Positions 18,812-29,710 of a stretch of DNA of 64,000 nt are shown here, one piece after another. The stretch covers positions 1 through 64,000 of the forward strand of contig NZ_FNCA01000004.1 in the NCBI RefSeq assembly GCF_900100715.1, written 5' to 3'. The first letter of the stretch is position 1; each line of letters opens with the position of its first letter. Made by a program: the position numbers and the translations under genes. The notes below the pieces were generated by a model. That model ran no database searches. It was not told where the DNA came from and worked only from the letters and a program-made list of their open reading frames with translations. This DNA is from Methanolobus vulcani (GTDB lineage Archaea > Halobacteriota > Methanosarcinia > Methanosarcinales > Methanosarcinaceae).

Positions 18812-19045
18812 TTATTTCAGCTCTGCTCCCACAATTGTCTGAGTCGCAGTGACTGACTCGGTTTCACGTATAAGATCGACTATGCTATTGAGACTTCCAA
18901 GGTCACCAACCTCAATGATCACAACAAAGTCATATTCTCCAAAAACATGATATATATCCTTTATACCCTCAATTCTGTTGAGTTCGTTAAAAGCTGCCCT
19001 TTCACTACCAGGCAGTACATTTACCATAGTTACGCCTATTACCAT
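18812..19045 (-). CDS. Stand-alone Lrp/AsnC ligand-binding (RAM) domain protein
   Basis: About 77 residues forming one alpha-beta RAM domain (VTMVNVLPGSERAAFNELNR, GIKDIYHVFGEYDFVVIIEV, TESVTATQTIV). No DNA-binding helix-turn-helix is present. Such single-domain proteins bind amino acids and can assemble with full-length Lrp proteins. ATG 19045 is preferred over the longer frame to 19093 because GTGAT precedes it and because the extra residues do not resemble the family. A full-length Lrp protein is encoded at 55445-55939 in this window. Confidence 0.85.
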   Translation of the reverse strand: MVIGVTMVNVLPGSERAAFNELNRIEGIKDIYHVFGEYDFVVIIEVGDLGSLNSIVDLIRETESVTATQTIVGAELK

Positions 19046-19171
19046 TGTATCACTTAGACAGAAGTAGGATGCAAAGTATTTAGACGTTTTCAATAATACA
19101 TTTGAGGCTCAAATAAGCAGGAAAAAGTATAAAAGTATTTTCGCAATCAATCACCTTATTTTAAAATTTAC

Positions 19172-21339: not shown

Positions 21340-21426
21340 GTTATTACCCAATATTCAGGAAAAGTAATTAATGTTTGCACCACTTTGTTGTTCTGATTGA
21401 TATTATTGATGGTAGAGGTATCATCC

Positions 21427-22281
21427 ATGGGATCAAAAAGCACGGAAAATCTCCTGGGCCTTATAGAAAAAAGGGCATTGCAGAACAGGGCAAGAGTTGC
21501 CATAGGAGTACGCAATCCAAGTCCCAAAATGCTGAAGAGTGCCAGGGATGCACACGTTGCAGGATATGCACATGTGATGCTGGTAGGTAACAAAAAAGAG
21601 ATCGAAGATATAGGTACAGACCTTGAGATAATAGGAACGAACGATCCCGAAAGAACCCTGGGAGACCTGCTCAAGTCCAGATATGTGGATGCTGCGGTCA
21701 GAGGAACAGCAGGAGCCTCTCAAACATTATCACATCTCAAGAAGATACTGAACCAGGAAAGCCTCCATAGAATAGCATTATTGCAGACTAATGATGGAAC
21801 ACCTTTTTTTATAGCACCCGTTGGAATCGATGAAGGAAACCAACTGGCTGACAAGATAGAATTCATCAAGCTTGGTGTTGAGTATATAAGAAGATTTAAC
21901 ATTGAACCGGTTGTTGGAATATTATCCGGTGGAAGACTTGGCGACCTTGGACGTAACAGCCGTGTTGACCAGACCCTGGCTGAAGGAGACTTCATCGTAA
22001 ACAGGATAAGAGAACAGGGAATCGATGCCAAACATTATACCATCCTAATAGAAGATGCAATAAAAGAAGCGAATTTCATACTTGCCCCGGATGGGATTTC
22101 AGGAAATCTGATATTCAGGACCCTTGTATTCCTGGGTGGAGGATATGGTTTTGGAGCACCGATACTGATGGATGATTACGTATTTGTTGACACATCCAGA
22201 GTCGGAGGTCACTATACCAAGGCAATAATGCTTGCCAGTGCACTGGTTGGCAAGCAAGAGGCAAATACTGACAGCCAGTGA
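21427..22281 (+). CDS. mtxX: MtxX, methanogenesis marker protein 4
   Basis: About 284 residues, related in fold to phosphate acetyl/butyryltransferases (RVAIGVRNPSPKMLKSARDA, GILSGGRLGDLGR, AEGDFIVN, NLIFRTLVFLGGG). This is the MtxX family, found in methanogens and originally named as a methyltransferase-related protein; its reaction is unknown. The ATG at 21427 has GAGGT nine bases upstream. The frame also extends back to a TTG at 21397 without a ribosome-binding site. It supports assigning the window to a methanogen. Confidence 0.85.
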   Translation: MGSKSTENLLGLIEKRALQNRARVAIGVRNPSPKMLKSARDAHVAGYAHVMLVGNKKEIEDIGTDLEIIGTNDPERTLGDLLKSRYVDAAVRGTAGASQTLSHLKKILNQESLHRIALLQTNDGTPFFIAPVGIDEGNQLADKIEFIKLGVEYIRRFNIEPVVGILSGGRLGDLGRNSRVDQTLAEGDFIVNRIREQGIDAKHYTILIEDAIKEANFILAPDGISGNLIFRTLVFLGGGYGFGAPILMDDYVFVDTSRVGGHYTKAIMLASALVGKQEANTDSQ

Positions 22282-22383
22282 CAACAATATTTTATACAGG
22301 ATGCATACAATCTAATTTATTAAATTCATTTTATCCATAGGGATGATATTGCGGTAATTAATAATTCATAGGGAATGAGCGAT

Positions 22384-23148
22384 ATGGAAGCTGTACTGAT
22401 AAAAGGAAAAACAATCGCTTCTGCATGGTCTCAATTGATCCGTGAGATCTATGAGAAGGGAGAGGAGCATAAGCCGGACTATAAGACAATGACAAAGAGG
22501 GTCCATGCCACCATATATATTGAGGACGTGAACAACAATCAGGTTAGCCCTGCTGTACCCTTTGGAGAGAATCTGATAGCCAAATATAAGGAAGAACTTA
22601 CTGAAGAATACGCAGACTGGTACAATTCCCTGGAAGATGATGATAAAAGAAAATTTGACTATTGTTATGCTAAACAGTTGTTCAGGTACGGACAGGCTGC
22701 ATATGATAGTGTAAATGCCAATGTGAAGAACCTGAGACCAGGATCAAGAAGACATGTAGGCGTACTCTGGGAAAATGAAGTGCACATCCCTAAATTTGAA
22801 GACCAGCCATGCTGGATAGCCTACAAATTAGAACAACTAAATGATACACAGGTAAGGATATATCTGCTTTACAGGTCATGGGACGCTTTTGGTGGATTCC
22901 CTGCAAATATCCCTGCTATTGTGGAAGGATTCAAAAAGGTATTCAGAGAAAATGACCTGAATTATGATATTGAATCACTTATTGCAACAGGATGGGATAC
23001 ACATATCTATGACACTGATCTGCAGGCAGTGGAAAAGATATTCAAGACAAGTGAGTTATGCCCATTATGCAAATGCATAACACCAAAACACTCATTCATC
23101 CAAACAACCAGAGGCAAGGCTTGCCCGGAATGTAAGAAATCCATGTGA
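22384..23148 (+). CDS. Thymidylate-synthase-superfamily protein with C-terminal zinc ribbon
   Basis: About 254 residues. The core shows ThyA landmarks in order: phosphate-binding RPGSRRHVGVLW, the catalytic cysteine in QPCW, YRSWDAFGGFPANI (compare RSxDxxxGxPxNI) and THIYDTD (compare HIY). This fits the archaeal-type thymidylate synthase group; dCMP hydroxymethylase-like activity is an alternative. The last 40 residues add CPLC and CPEC pairs, a probable zinc ribbon not found in standard ThyA. ATG 22384 is about nine bases after GGGA; ATG 22375 is the alternative. Downstream of mtxX on the same strand. Confidence 0.7.
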   Translation: MEAVLIKGKTIASAWSQLIREIYEKGEEHKPDYKTMTKRVHATIYIEDVNNNQVSPAVPFGENLIAKYKEELTEEYADWYNSLEDDDKRKFDYCYAKQLFRYGQAAYDSVNANVKNLRPGSRRHVGVLWENEVHIPKFEDQPCWIAYKLEQLNDTQVRIYLLYRSWDAFGGFPANIPAIVEGFKKVFRENDLNYDIESLIATGWDTHIYDTDLQAVEKIFKTSELCPLCKCITPKHSFIQTTRGKACPECKKSM

Positions 23149-23374
23149 TCTTACATTCATATTCTTTTTTTAGTACACTGCATGCAAGCTTACTTTTTTT
23201 ACGGGATTTAATCCAGCTATTGCATCAGTTCTTTTGTTACTTTTTTTATTTTGAAATCATACACAATAAGCAACAATCATAAATTTTAAAATATAAATTC
23301 GATAATTATATATGTATGCTTCATGCATACATTAATGTGATTCCACTAATCAGACATTCAAGGAGAGATATACT

Positions 23375-25315
23375 ATGAAAAGACTTACTATCAGCATGTC
23401 CGATGAGCTTTTTGACAAACTGGACGTAATTGAAAATAAAAGTTTGTTCATCAGAAAGCTTATAGAAAGAGAACTAGATGCTGTAGAGAATTTCTCTTCT
23501 GAAGAAGTCGTCCCCTGGAGTGAAGGTTTCAGTATTCTAAAAAAAGATGTTAATACAATATTCAGTCGTCTTGAAGAGATGGAAAGCAAACTTGCGGGAA
23601 TGAATACTGTACATGAGAATGAACCTTTGATGCAGGAATCCTTAAACTCCATGGAACAGGACATTCCTGAATCATTCCCGGAACTACAGGACAATCTTAC
23701 ACAAACTATTGATACACATGAAAGTCAAGAACCCATACCCATTGATAAAATTCCAGCTGAGAATACTAGTACCCCAGACATAATTGAAGGCATTAGTGCA
23801 GACCACACAAATATTCCCGTACTTATTGAGACCGATGTTGGCATAACTTTGGAAGACGTGCAGGAGTCTGCCATCAATGAACCATACATTGAAAGTGTGA
23901 AAACTGAAGAGCCAGTAATTAGTGAAATACAAAATTCTGAACAAACTATGCCTGCAAACCTTCCAGAAGCTGCTGACACTGCACCATTGTTCAAAACCAG
24001 CATACAGGAACCAACACCAATGGAAATTGCCATCACAGAGGAACAAATCATTCCCGATAAAAGCACATTATTAAATGAAAATAATGAAGCAGTAGTTAGC
24101 CCATCCATACCTGAGACTGAAGTGCAAAATGAAGGAAATGACGAAATTTCTCGCGAACATAAACTCTCTGAACTGGTTGCAGAAAGAATTAATCAGGAAA
24201 CTGAACTGGAAACCAATGATTTTAAAGAACCAGAAATCTCACCATCTATTCTCTCTGAACAAAATGCAACACAGCCAGAATTCAAGATGCCAGAATTCAA
24301 ATCATCTGAGCAGGAAACACAACAACAGGAATTCAAGATGCCAGAATTTAAAACACCGGAGCAGGAGGCAGAACCTGCAGAGTTCCAGATGCCGGAACTG
24401 AAACTACCGGAATCTGATACGGCACAAACGGATTTCAAAATGCCAGAAATAAAACCACCAGAGCAGGAAATGGGACAAATGGAATTCCAGATGCCGGAAT
24501 TCAAAATACAGGAACAAGAAATACAACAACCAGAGTTCCAGATGCCGGAATTCAAAACACAGGAACAGGAAATACAACAACCAGAGTTCCAGATGCCGGA
24601 ATTCAAAACACAGGAACAGGAAATACAACAACCAGAGTTCCAGATGCCGGAATTCAAAACACAGGAACAGGAAATACAACAACCAGAGTTCCAGATGCCG
24701 GAATTCAAAACACAGGAACAGGAAATACAACAGCCGGAGTTCCAGATGCCGGAGTTCAAAACACAGGAACAGGAAATACAACAACCAGAGTTCCAGATGT
24801 CGGAATTCAAAACACCGGAACAGGAAATACAACAACCGGAGTTCCAGATGCCGGAATTCAAAACACAGGAACAAGAAATAGGACAGACAGCGTTTGCAAT
24901 TCCAGAACTACAAACACCAGAAACGGCACCATTGTTCCCAGCGAATGATACAGAATCTGCGATGCAGGAAATGAAAACACCCGAAATACTACCTGTTACT
25001 GAAGAAGCGATGCCACCATTTAACGCAGGACCGGAAAACATTCCGGAAATGCAAAGTACAGAGCCTCAGATGCAAAACCCGGGTTCACAAAATAATACAA
25101 ATAATGGAACAGGAACTAAACCTGACAAACTGGAAACCAATATTCTAATGTACATGCCGCGTGGAGCTAAAGTTAAAAAAGAGATCATCAAGAGCCTTGT
25201 ATCACGCCAGTTCAGCCAGGAAGATATTGACAAGAAGATACAGGAACTGGTTGCAAGAGAGATATTAATACTCAAGCAGGAAAATGGTGTGGAACAGCTT
25301 CACAGGTTGAAATAG
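23375..25315 (+). CDS. Repeat-rich acidic protein with RHH-like N-terminus and winged-helix-like C-terminus
   Basis: The 646 residues fall into three parts. Residues 1-45 (KRLTISMSDELFDKLD, NKSLFIRKLIERELD) resemble a ribbon-helix-helix DNA-binding domain. Residues about 80-570 are acidic, rich in Pro, Glu and Gln, and contain tandem repeats of the form EIQQPEFQMPEFKTQEQ. The last 60 residues (TNILMYMPRGAKVKKEIIK, QFSQEDIDKKIQELVAREIL, QLHRLK) look like a small winged helix. It may be a DNA-binding linker or scaffold protein; no family is known to me. It is preceded by GGAGAG and stands alone. Confidence 0.8.
   Translation: MKRLTISMSDELFDKLDVIENKSLFIRKLIERELDAVENFSSEEVVPWSEGFSILKKDVNTIFSRLEEMESKLAGMNTVHENEPLMQESLNSMEQDIPESFPELQDNLTQTIDTHESQEPIPIDKIPAENTSTPDIIEGISADHTNIPVLIETDVGITLEDVQESAINEPYIESVKTEEPVISEIQNSEQTMPANLPEAADTAPLFKTSIQEPTPMEIAITEEQIIPDKSTLLNENNEAVVSPSIPETEVQNEGNDEISREHKLSELVAERINQETELETNDFKEPEISPSILSEQNATQPEFKMPEFKSSEQETQQQEFKMPEFKTPEQEAEPAEFQMPELKLPESDTAQTDFKMPEIKPPEQEMGQMEFQMPEFKIQEQEIQQPEFQMPEFKTQEQEIQQPEFQMPEFKTQEQEIQQPEFQMPEFKTQEQEIQQPEFQMPEFKTQEQEIQQPEFQMPEFKTQEQEIQQPEFQMSEFKTPEQEIQQPEFQMPEFKTQEQEIGQTAFAIPELQTPETAPLFPANDTESAMQEMKTPEILPVTEEAMPPFNAGPENIPEMQSTEPQMQNPGSQNNTNNGTGTKPDKLETNILMYMPRGAKVKKEIIKSLVSRQFSQEDIDKKIQELVAREILILKQENGVEQLHRLK
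24514..24873 (+). repeat. 51-base tandem repeat within the repeat-rich gene, seven copies
   Basis: Seven consecutive units of 51 bases encode EIQQPEFQMPEFKTQEQ with very few substitutions (one copy has MSEF and TPEQ). More diverged copies lie upstream from about 24270. Near-identity at the DNA level, including synonymous positions, points to recent expansion by slippage or unequal crossover. The reverse strand stays open here because the repeat unit is a multiple of three. Confidence 0.9.
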
Positions 25316-28033: not shown

Positions 28034-29710
28034 ATGAAAGCAGTAATAATTGACGGATATGTAGACGAACCAGCCTGTTTCGGAGTTCCACCATACATAT
28101 CCCCCTACATAAGGTACATAGCAGGTGCTTTAAGAGAAAAAGGGTTTCAGGAAGAGAATATATCCTATTTTACAATTGACAGTCTGCGCAAAGATATCAC
28201 CGAGGCACCAAGACTCATAAATCGAGCAGACATAGTTGTAGTTCTTGCAGGCATGACTGTTCCAGGAAAATACCTGCGTTCAAAACCTATCAATATAGGA
28301 GAAATAGAAAGCATATTCAGTGCCACCAACGGAACAAAGATACTAGGAGGACCCATTCGACTTGGATTCTCCCTAGAAGGTGGGAAGAGGGCTGAATGTG
28401 ATATTATAACCAGCACCGATGCATGTATTTCCAGCAAAGATATCGAAGCTTTTGTATTTGATATCACAGGAGACAACGCACAGTCCCCTGACAGTTATGA
28501 TCACAGGTTCAGATCCATTGAAGAAATAGGAAGATGGAGTACAAAAGGCAGCTTCATTATCAAAAAACATCCCGACTATCCTAACGTGATGTGCGAGATC
28601 GAGACATACAGAGGATGTGGACGCAAACAGCACTGTTCATTCTGCACAGAGCCTTCTTACGGCAGCTCAGATTACAGACCTGTTAAAGATGTCATATCTG
28701 AAGTTTCAGAACTCTACAAACATGGCGCAAGATTTTTCAGGATTGGCAGACAGCCCGATATTTTAAGTTATCATGCAAAGGACAAAGGAGGAGAGATTCC
28801 CGAACCTGACCCACAGGCTATACGTTCCCTTTACAAAGGAATCAGAGATGTTGCACCAGATCTGAAAGTCCTTCACATGGATAATGCAAATCCGGGAACA
28901 ATTGCAACCTATCCCGAACTTAGCAAGGAGATTTTCAAAACCATTATAAAATATCATACATCAGGAGATGTGGCTGCTCTTGGAATGGAAAGTGCTGATC
29001 CGGAAGTTGTCAGAGCTAACGGCCTCAAAGCAATGCCTGATGAGATATTTGAAGCTATTAAAATCATAAATGAAGTTGGAAGAGTCCGAGGAGCAAACGG
29101 AATGCCTGAACTTCTCCCGGGAATCAATATTGTTCACGGACTTATGGGAGAATCCAAAAAGACGTTTGAGTTAAACTTCGAGTTCCTCAAAAAAGTTCTT
29201 GATGAAGACCTGCTGCTTCGCAGGATAAATATCCGCCAAGTAATGGCATTTCCAGGCACCCGCATGTACGGAAATGATGAACTTGTAAGAAAGCACAAGC
29301 AGATATTCCTGAAATATAAGGAAATGATCCGAAAGGAGATCGATATGCCAATGCTGAAAAAGATAATCCCTGCAGGTACTGTGCTAAAGGATGTGATGTG
29401 CGAGGTAAATAGCGAAAGAATATGTTTTGGAAGACAGATGGGATCATATCCACTCCTAATAGGAATACCCGCAAACCAGCAACTTGGAGAATACATTGAT
29501 GTTACAGTAACGAGACATGGCCATCGATCTATTACAGGGATACCATATCCACTGGATATCAATACCGCGCCCATTTCACTTATACAGGAACTCCCGGGAA
29601 TAGCAAAAAAGCAAGCTATCCATCTTAATAAAGAATTACCTTTTAAGAATGCAGATGATTTTTCCCAAAGGACAGGAAAGAAAGAAATACTTCCATACAT
29701 CAGTTTCTAA
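28034..29710 (+). CDS. Radical SAM protein with C-terminal helix-hairpin-helix (COG1031-like)
   Basis: The 558 residues begin with a B12-binding-like Rossmann region (about 1-150). The radical SAM core is centred on GCGRKQHCSFC (about 200), where the cysteines are spaced CX5CX2C instead of the usual CX3CX2C. The downstream FRIGRQPDILSY and GMESADPEVVRANGL motifs fit the core. The last 60 residues (DINTAPISLIQELPGI, NKELPFKNADDF) form a helix-hairpin-helix, suggesting nucleic-acid contact. The family is uncharacterised. Its 3' end converges on the next gene. Confidence 0.85.
   Translation: MKAVIIDGYVDEPACFGVPPYISPYIRYIAGALREKGFQEENISYFTIDSLRKDITEAPRLINRADIVVVLAGMTVPGKYLRSKPINIGEIESIFSATNGTKILGGPIRLGFSLEGGKRAECDIITSTDACISSKDIEAFVFDITGDNAQSPDSYDHRFRSIEEIGRWSTKGSFIIKKHPDYPNVMCEIETYRGCGRKQHCSFCTEPSYGSSDYRPVKDVISEVSELYKHGARFFRIGRQPDILSYHAKDKGGEIPEPDPQAIRSLYKGIRDVAPDLKVLHMDNANPGTIATYPELSKEIFKTIIKYHTSGDVAALGMESADPEVVRANGLKAMPDEIFEAIKIINEVGRVRGANGMPELLPGINIVHGLMGESKKTFELNFEFLKKVLDEDLLLRRINIRQVMAFPGTRMYGNDELVRKHKQIFLKYKEMIRKEIDMPMLKKIIPAGTVLKDVMCEVNSERICFGRQMGSYPLLIGIPANQQLGEYIDVTVTRHGHRSITGIPYPLDINTAPISLIQELPGIAKKQAIHLNKELPFKNADDFSQRTGKKEILPYISF

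Follow-up and report, generated by a model that had tools for sequence, protein, structure and literature searches.

The window analysed here, a stretch of 64,000 nucleotides from Methanolobus vulcani (contig NZ_FNCA01000004.1, positions 1 to 64,000; genome size 2.95 Mb), contains an open reading frame for a 646-residue protein that combines a ribbon-helix-helix (RHH) domain, a putative coiled coil, an acidic disordered linker, and a winged helix, and that is referred to below as the two-headed protein. The frame ends in TAG, and the next in-frame codons are ACA and TAA. The gene, its upstream neighbours, and the elements within and before it are as follows.

21397–22281, plus strand: mtxX (methanogenesis marker 4), an upstream neighbour kept across genera
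22375–23148, plus strand: thymidylate-synthase-like gene just upstream, in the place taken by mtrA/mtrH-like genes in other genera
23258–23263, no strand assigned: extra half-site 5' of the inverted repeat, CATACA (TCATACA), which the close subclade conserves
23284–23298, plus strand: putative TATA-like element TTTTAAAATATAAAT, about 25 bp 5' of the inverted repeat
23313–23331, no strand assigned: inverted repeat TGTATG-CTTCATG-CATACA, the proposed RHH operator and the only exact copy in the genome
23375–25315, plus strand: gene of the two-headed protein, 646 residues
23375–23503, plus strand: CopG-type RHH domain, residues 1–43, beginning MKRLTISMSDELFDKLDVIENKSLFIRKLIERELD, with helices at 10–18 and 22–38
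23516–23617, plus strand: long helix, residues 48–81, a coiled coil by inspection
23618–25120, plus strand: acidic disordered linker, residues 82–582
24106–24169, plus strand: HKLSELVAEK-like linker motif, residues about 245–265
24254–24919, plus strand: 13 copies of a 17-residue repeat with the core FxMPEF (51-bp DNA unit)
25121–25312, plus strand: winged helix, residues 583–646

Structural assignments were taken from an AlphaFold2 model built on 21 aligned sequences (the 646-residue protein and 20 homologues), since the single-sequence model was poor (mean pLDDT 40.5). In Pfam, the N-terminus of the 646-residue protein itself has no match, and 10 of 18 family members match RHH_1, weakly (best E 4.4e-4), with RHH_5 and RHH_3 matching other members. 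PDB sequence searches with either end as query gave no significant match; NikR aligned with the N-terminus in register at its start (E 0.21). Matches of the RHH part in PHROGs were weak or fell on families without a function, and the Foldseek listing for the 646-residue model contained no match with an E value of 0.001 or lower; fold searching barely probed the RHH part. The two RHH helices are modelled with block pLDDT values of 65–73 in a monomer, where the strand would need a partner chain; the domain is probably a dimer strengthened by the coiled coil. The long helix reaches a block pLDDT of 87, and within it E70 is invariant and L66 nearly so. The strand MKRLTIS is shared with Methanomethylovorans and Methanosalsum, while its residues 3, 5, and 7 are E, K, and S in Methanococcoides and mostly Q, K, and D in Methanohalophilus. 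Glutamate at position 3 in the former and, mostly, aspartate at position 7 in the latter are unusual for residues that contact bases.

The segment between the two ends is strongly acidic (residues 46–585 hold 22% D+E, 6% K+R, 11% P, and 12% Q, with a net charge of −87) and, over residues 82–582, is mostly modelled below a pLDDT of 50. The FxMPEF cores keep strict register between residues 303 and 507, and TRF recognised the 51-bp unit at 24271–24880 in 12.0 copies with a score of 758. The HKLSELVAEK-like motif recurs in part of Methanolobus and is predicted as a helix in the single-sequence model only. Among the family the linker ranges from 59 to 608 residues, with some members at just 59–83, and its repeats are specific to lineages. 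The two-headed family is therefore defined by its ends, and the arm is an elaboration. A motif of the form [FILVY]x[MF]P[DE][LFIM] recurs across linkers whose repeat families differ, and in most Methanolobus members and several others it is more frequent than in composition shuffles; it is absent from Methanohalophilus and Methanosalsum linkers and is thus a feature of lineages, not of the core. The variable repeats may serve as a spacer or provide weak multivalent contacts.

The C-terminal domain is modelled with pLDDT 90–94 (block range 81–94) in the order H1, strand, H2, H3, strand, strand, i.e., three helices and a C-terminal beta hairpin as the wing. With VIA-align it reached Z values of 9–10 over 61–70 residues against many winged helices, with BlaI/MecI, Pyrococcus abyssi Rpa2 (9f27, Z 9.8, 19% identity), and yeast MCM5 among the top matches. 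Because repressors of the Fur, BlaI/MecI, and HxlR types tie with Rpa2 and MCM5, the fold is compatible with DNA as well as with protein binding. Sequence profiles point to the MCM5_C, MCM3, and MCM7 winged helices and Hop2 in Pfam and to Pyrococcus Rpa2 among PDB sequences; all of these matches are weak, those to MCM and Rpa2 having E values of about 0.003 to 0.6, and, proving nothing alone, agree with a winged helix of the RPA32/MCM-like type. Among the 51 members compared, residues K601 and L608 do not vary, position 602 holds only K or R, and Y593, P595, G597, S610, and R644 are near invariant. The recognition helix carries E or D at positions 617 and 619 in 48 of the 51 and varies at 615, 616, 620, and 623, exposure being judged from the helix pattern. 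Such an acidic and variable helix speaks against a classical reading of the major groove, and a protein-contact module consequently fits better than a second grip on DNA; the conserved set of K601, K602, and R644 could nevertheless contact DNA, and the domain is mildly basic in Methanolobus (net charge +3; complete members range from about −3 to +7). An origin from mobile elements was dropped, since no relative of the winged helix was found in the viral contigs, plasmids, and phages searched.

Both ends travel together. The N-terminal 87 residues as query matched 43 of 112 Methanosarcinaceae genomes in seven genera, and profiles of the RHH domain and the winged helix matched 67 and 59, respectively, of the 186 genomes of the order. 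Winged-helix matches share a reading frame with an RHH match, barring genomes with contig breaks and one locus with an internal TAG (L154), and a few of the RHH matches are RHH-only proteins from other families. About 50 Methanosarcinaceae genomes have both ends in one reading frame at one syntenic place. The family has members in all 27 Methanolobus genomes, in genomes resembling Methanococcoides, Methanohalophilus, Methanomethylovorans, and Methanosalsum, and in further genera. The gene is single-copy and chromosomal, is kept across most methylotrophic Methanosarcinaceae, and conserves its winged helix about as well as its RHH domain. A distant genome of the same class (G186) encodes a 165-residue protein with an RHH domain, a helical charged middle, and a winged helix, lacking the long disordered arm. 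That 23375–25315 might be a chance reading frame is ruled out by the conservation of both ends within a single frame in many genera.

A few family loci depart from this plan. In a Methanococcoides-like genome (G064) a single in-frame TAG at L154:8737–8739 separates the RHH half from the winged-helix half at a position where a relative encodes lysine; it is either a premature stop or read through as pyrrolysine, an amino acid that the family of this genome is known to use. One Methanococcoides-like genome lacks the C-terminal part of the protein, and in genome G061 the syntenic place holds a 108-residue RHH-type frame with no winged helix detected (L086:8151–8475), possibly a truncated or broken gene. 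A marginal second match to the winged-helix profile (E 0.009) lies in a frame with an internal TAA (G082:C12:4733–4870). Near one family locus, a short antitoxin-like frame followed by a RelE-like one (L072:2413–2903) resembles, by eye, a toxin-antitoxin module.

The initial annotation had described a large acidic repeat protein with DNA-binding-type ends, two such folds joined by one long disordered, repeat-bearing linker, and had held that the idea would fall if neither end were predicted to adopt a DNA-binding fold or if homologues lacked both ends. The composition, the 13 repeats, the RHH_1 profile matches, and the winged-helix model bear out this description; the arrangement of the two folds is conserved in homologues, which carry both ends, and each end is assigned to a fold of DNA-binding type. 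Its remark that it knew of no described system with this design also held in our searches of Pfam, NCBIfam, PDB sequences, and papers: no Pfam or NCBIfam model covers the two-headed family, and no description of an RHH and winged-helix protein of this kind was found in the open-access literature.

The gene belongs to a conserved block of the order (top6A top6B) rfcL mtxX ... two-headed gene, ilvD. In nearly every other genus it is preceded by mtrA- and mtrH-like genes, assigned from their sequences, and the gene order of those genera matches the mtxXAH arrangement described earlier (PMC3087415). The Methanolobus genomes have a single mtrH each, and in Methanosarcina-type genomes the two-headed gene is missing from the syntenic place, where mtxX, the mtrH-like gene, and ilvD are retained. 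The gene probably arose within an mtx operon or became part of one, a link that it has outlived in Methanolobus. The link to top6AB and rfcL was rejected as functional evidence, as the block is general synteny. Other products of the neighbourhood include a 93-residue Lrp/AsnC-type C-terminal (RAM-like) domain with no recognised DNA-binding part between top6B and rfcL (18812–19093), the thymidylate-synthase-like protein, which has a C-terminal CxxC...CxxC zinc-ribbon-like tail and scores 78.7 bits against TIGR03283 (cut-off 174.55), and a conserved radical SAM protein that is weakly like the McrA glutamine C-methyltransferase family and has a weak helix-hairpin-helix tail (28034–29710).

Upstream of the coding frame lies the inverted repeat, which, judged from the placement of the TATA-like element, would cover the transcription start. 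The form TGTATG-N6to8-CATACA with at most one mismatch occurs within 120 bp upstream of 31 of 54 family genes and of 1 of 710 control regions, i.e., those of other genes at the same loci, with the 31 cases sharing ancestry and not being independent. Among the upstream regions compared, the arms are constant and the spacers differ. By genome-wide pattern search, the exact form with a 7-bp spacer is present in 20 of the 27 Methanolobus genomes, always at the two-headed gene, with three copies elsewhere in total, against four occurrences of the reversed control pattern over the same 27 genomes. Six of the remaining seven have a close variant at the gene (a 6-bp spacer in L063, L067, and L088; one mismatch in L053, L065, and L070), the seventh being G021. 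The source genome holds one exact and 16 one-mismatch sites (17 places, versus 8 for the reversed control), and no regulon is claimed, since of 14 one-mismatch sites inspected 13 fall within predicted reading frames and one is intergenic. The repeat was absent upstream of the gene in Methanomethylovorans, Methanosalsum, Methanococcoides, and Methanohalophilus, the last two of which differ in strand residues 3, 5, and 7; the first two lack it despite an unchanged MKRLTIS, so that RHH strand and proposed operator appear to co-vary only partially.

A nearly private repeat at its own promoter suggests that the gene is autoregulated. Promoter inverted repeats are common for RHH autoregulators, a likeness that the two-headed gene shares, and autorepression by the RHH domain would be the simplest reading of the repeat, which another regulator could also bind. 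We tentatively favour, with slightly less than even confidence, an RHH-based autoregulator with a winged helix that is carried on the acidic arm and acts mainly as a protein recruiter. The RHH domain, probably as a dimer with the coiled coil, would bind the inverted repeat over its own promoter and repress synthesis of the protein, and the long acidic arm would hold out the C-terminal winged helix, which, like its linker-borne counterpart in archaeal Rpa2, may bind a protein partner.

The initial annotation had instead proposed DNA bridging, chromosome organisation, or partition, with the RHH domain and the winged helix gripping two DNA sites and the linker spanning them. One chain does bear two DNA-binding-type folds, the coiled coil could give a bivalent dimer, and the gene is conserved, single-copy, and chromosomal. 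Against this proposal, the conserved repeat occurs almost exclusively at the gene's own promoter, the linker carries a net charge of about −87 per chain and shrinks to 59–83 residues in some members, the recognition helix is acidic and variable on a winged helix of net charge about −3 to +7, and no ParA gene was recognised nearby. Bridging is the less likely function, and we consider it improbable. Partition was rejected, as searches for exact and one-mismatch sites pointed to a single conserved site and none of about 55 neighbourhoods, with mtxX, thymidylate-synthase-like or mtrA/mtrH-like genes, and ilvD as neighbours, had a recognisable adjacent ParA-type gene. A scarcely more probable proposal is that the RHH-coiled-coil oligomer forms, at one chromosomal site, a multivalent scaffold that gathers replication or transcription proteins there by several acidic arms, each with up to about 20 copies of the [FILVY]x[MF]P[DE][LFIM] motif and a winged helix; if true, this would be a new archaeal regulatory platform with valency tuned by repeat expansion.

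A role in regulating one-carbon (methyl-transfer) genes is unlikely but has the strongest claim among the alternatives to autoregulation with protein recruitment. Its gene would ancestrally have closed an mtxA-mtxH operon, with the protein adjusting how strongly corrinoid methyltransferase is expressed, and would have been retained in Methanolobus with other targets once mtxA/H had been lost. Its position after mtrA/mtrH-like genes in nearly every other genus favours this, as does the gap of only about 12 bp between the mtrH-like stop and the ATG of the two-headed gene in G186, but 27 of 27 Methanolobus genomes keep the gene with a single mtrH, the repeat lies at its own promoter and not before mtxX or other neighbouring genes, and Methanosarcina-type genomes have mtxX and the mtrH-like gene without it. 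There is little to recommend an adaptor for replication or repair, in which the protein, bound to DNA, would serve as a platform to which its RPA32/MCM-like winged helix brings primase, polymerase, or clamp loader: the MCM and Rpa2 matches are concordant and rfcL and top6AB lie close to the gene in many Methanosarcinaceae, yet these matches are weak with many repressors among the ties, the neighbourhood also includes ilvD, FKBP, and methanogenesis genes, and the two-headed gene is absent from Methanosarcina-type genomes. An equally small chance is given to autoregulation as the only activity, with neutral expansion of the arm repeats in a protein on its way to loss. Repeat number and sequence indeed vary freely, one Methanococcoides-like genome has the in-frame TAG while one is missing the C-terminal part, and the gene is absent from the syntenic place in Methanosarcina-type genomes; however, many genera show strong conservation of both ends, to about the same degree in the winged helix and the RHH domain.

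The favoured reading, an RHH autoregulator tied to an Rpa2/MCM-like winged helix by an arm that evolves through repeat expansion, would make the family a testable case for the tuning of disordered linker length in archaeal DNA-bound proteins, and parts of its design have parallels in known systems. Like the CopG, NikR, MetJ, and Arc regulators, the protein begins with a strand and two helices, in register with NikR at the start and about 6 residues shorter than NikR in the first helix and loop, but its RHH part is fused to a long acidic arm with a winged helix, and it has no ligand domain. In P. abyssi Rpa2, a flexible linker rich in glutamate joins a DNA-binding core to a winged helix that binds the primase PriSL and PolD, and not primarily DNA (PMC11686378). 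The two-headed protein shares this plan of a DNA-binding part, an acidic linker, and a C-terminal winged helix with Rpa2 (RPA32), but has an RHH domain in place of the OB fold and, in most members, a far longer linker; as no OB-type Pfam match precedes the winged helix, with the N-terminus matching RHH and the rest predicted to be disordered, the protein is not an Rpa2. The likeness to the C-terminal winged helix of MCM is weak in Pfam, with yeast MCM5 among the top fold matches, and without an AAA+ core the protein is not a helicase. SegB of the Sulfolobales, an archaeal RHH protein, pairs with ParA-type SegA, binds palindromic motifs upstream of its own cassette and 35–49 chromosomal sites, and carries repeats in larger orthologues (PMC12284271). 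The two-headed gene, by comparison, has no recognised ParA neighbour and one conserved site. In PutA-type fusions, an RHH domain autoregulates a multidomain protein; where PutA carries enzymes, the two-headed protein has a winged helix and a disordered arm. Set beside these systems, the two-headed family is conserved, undescribed, and unnamed in the libraries searched, and is a variant among the RHH regulators.
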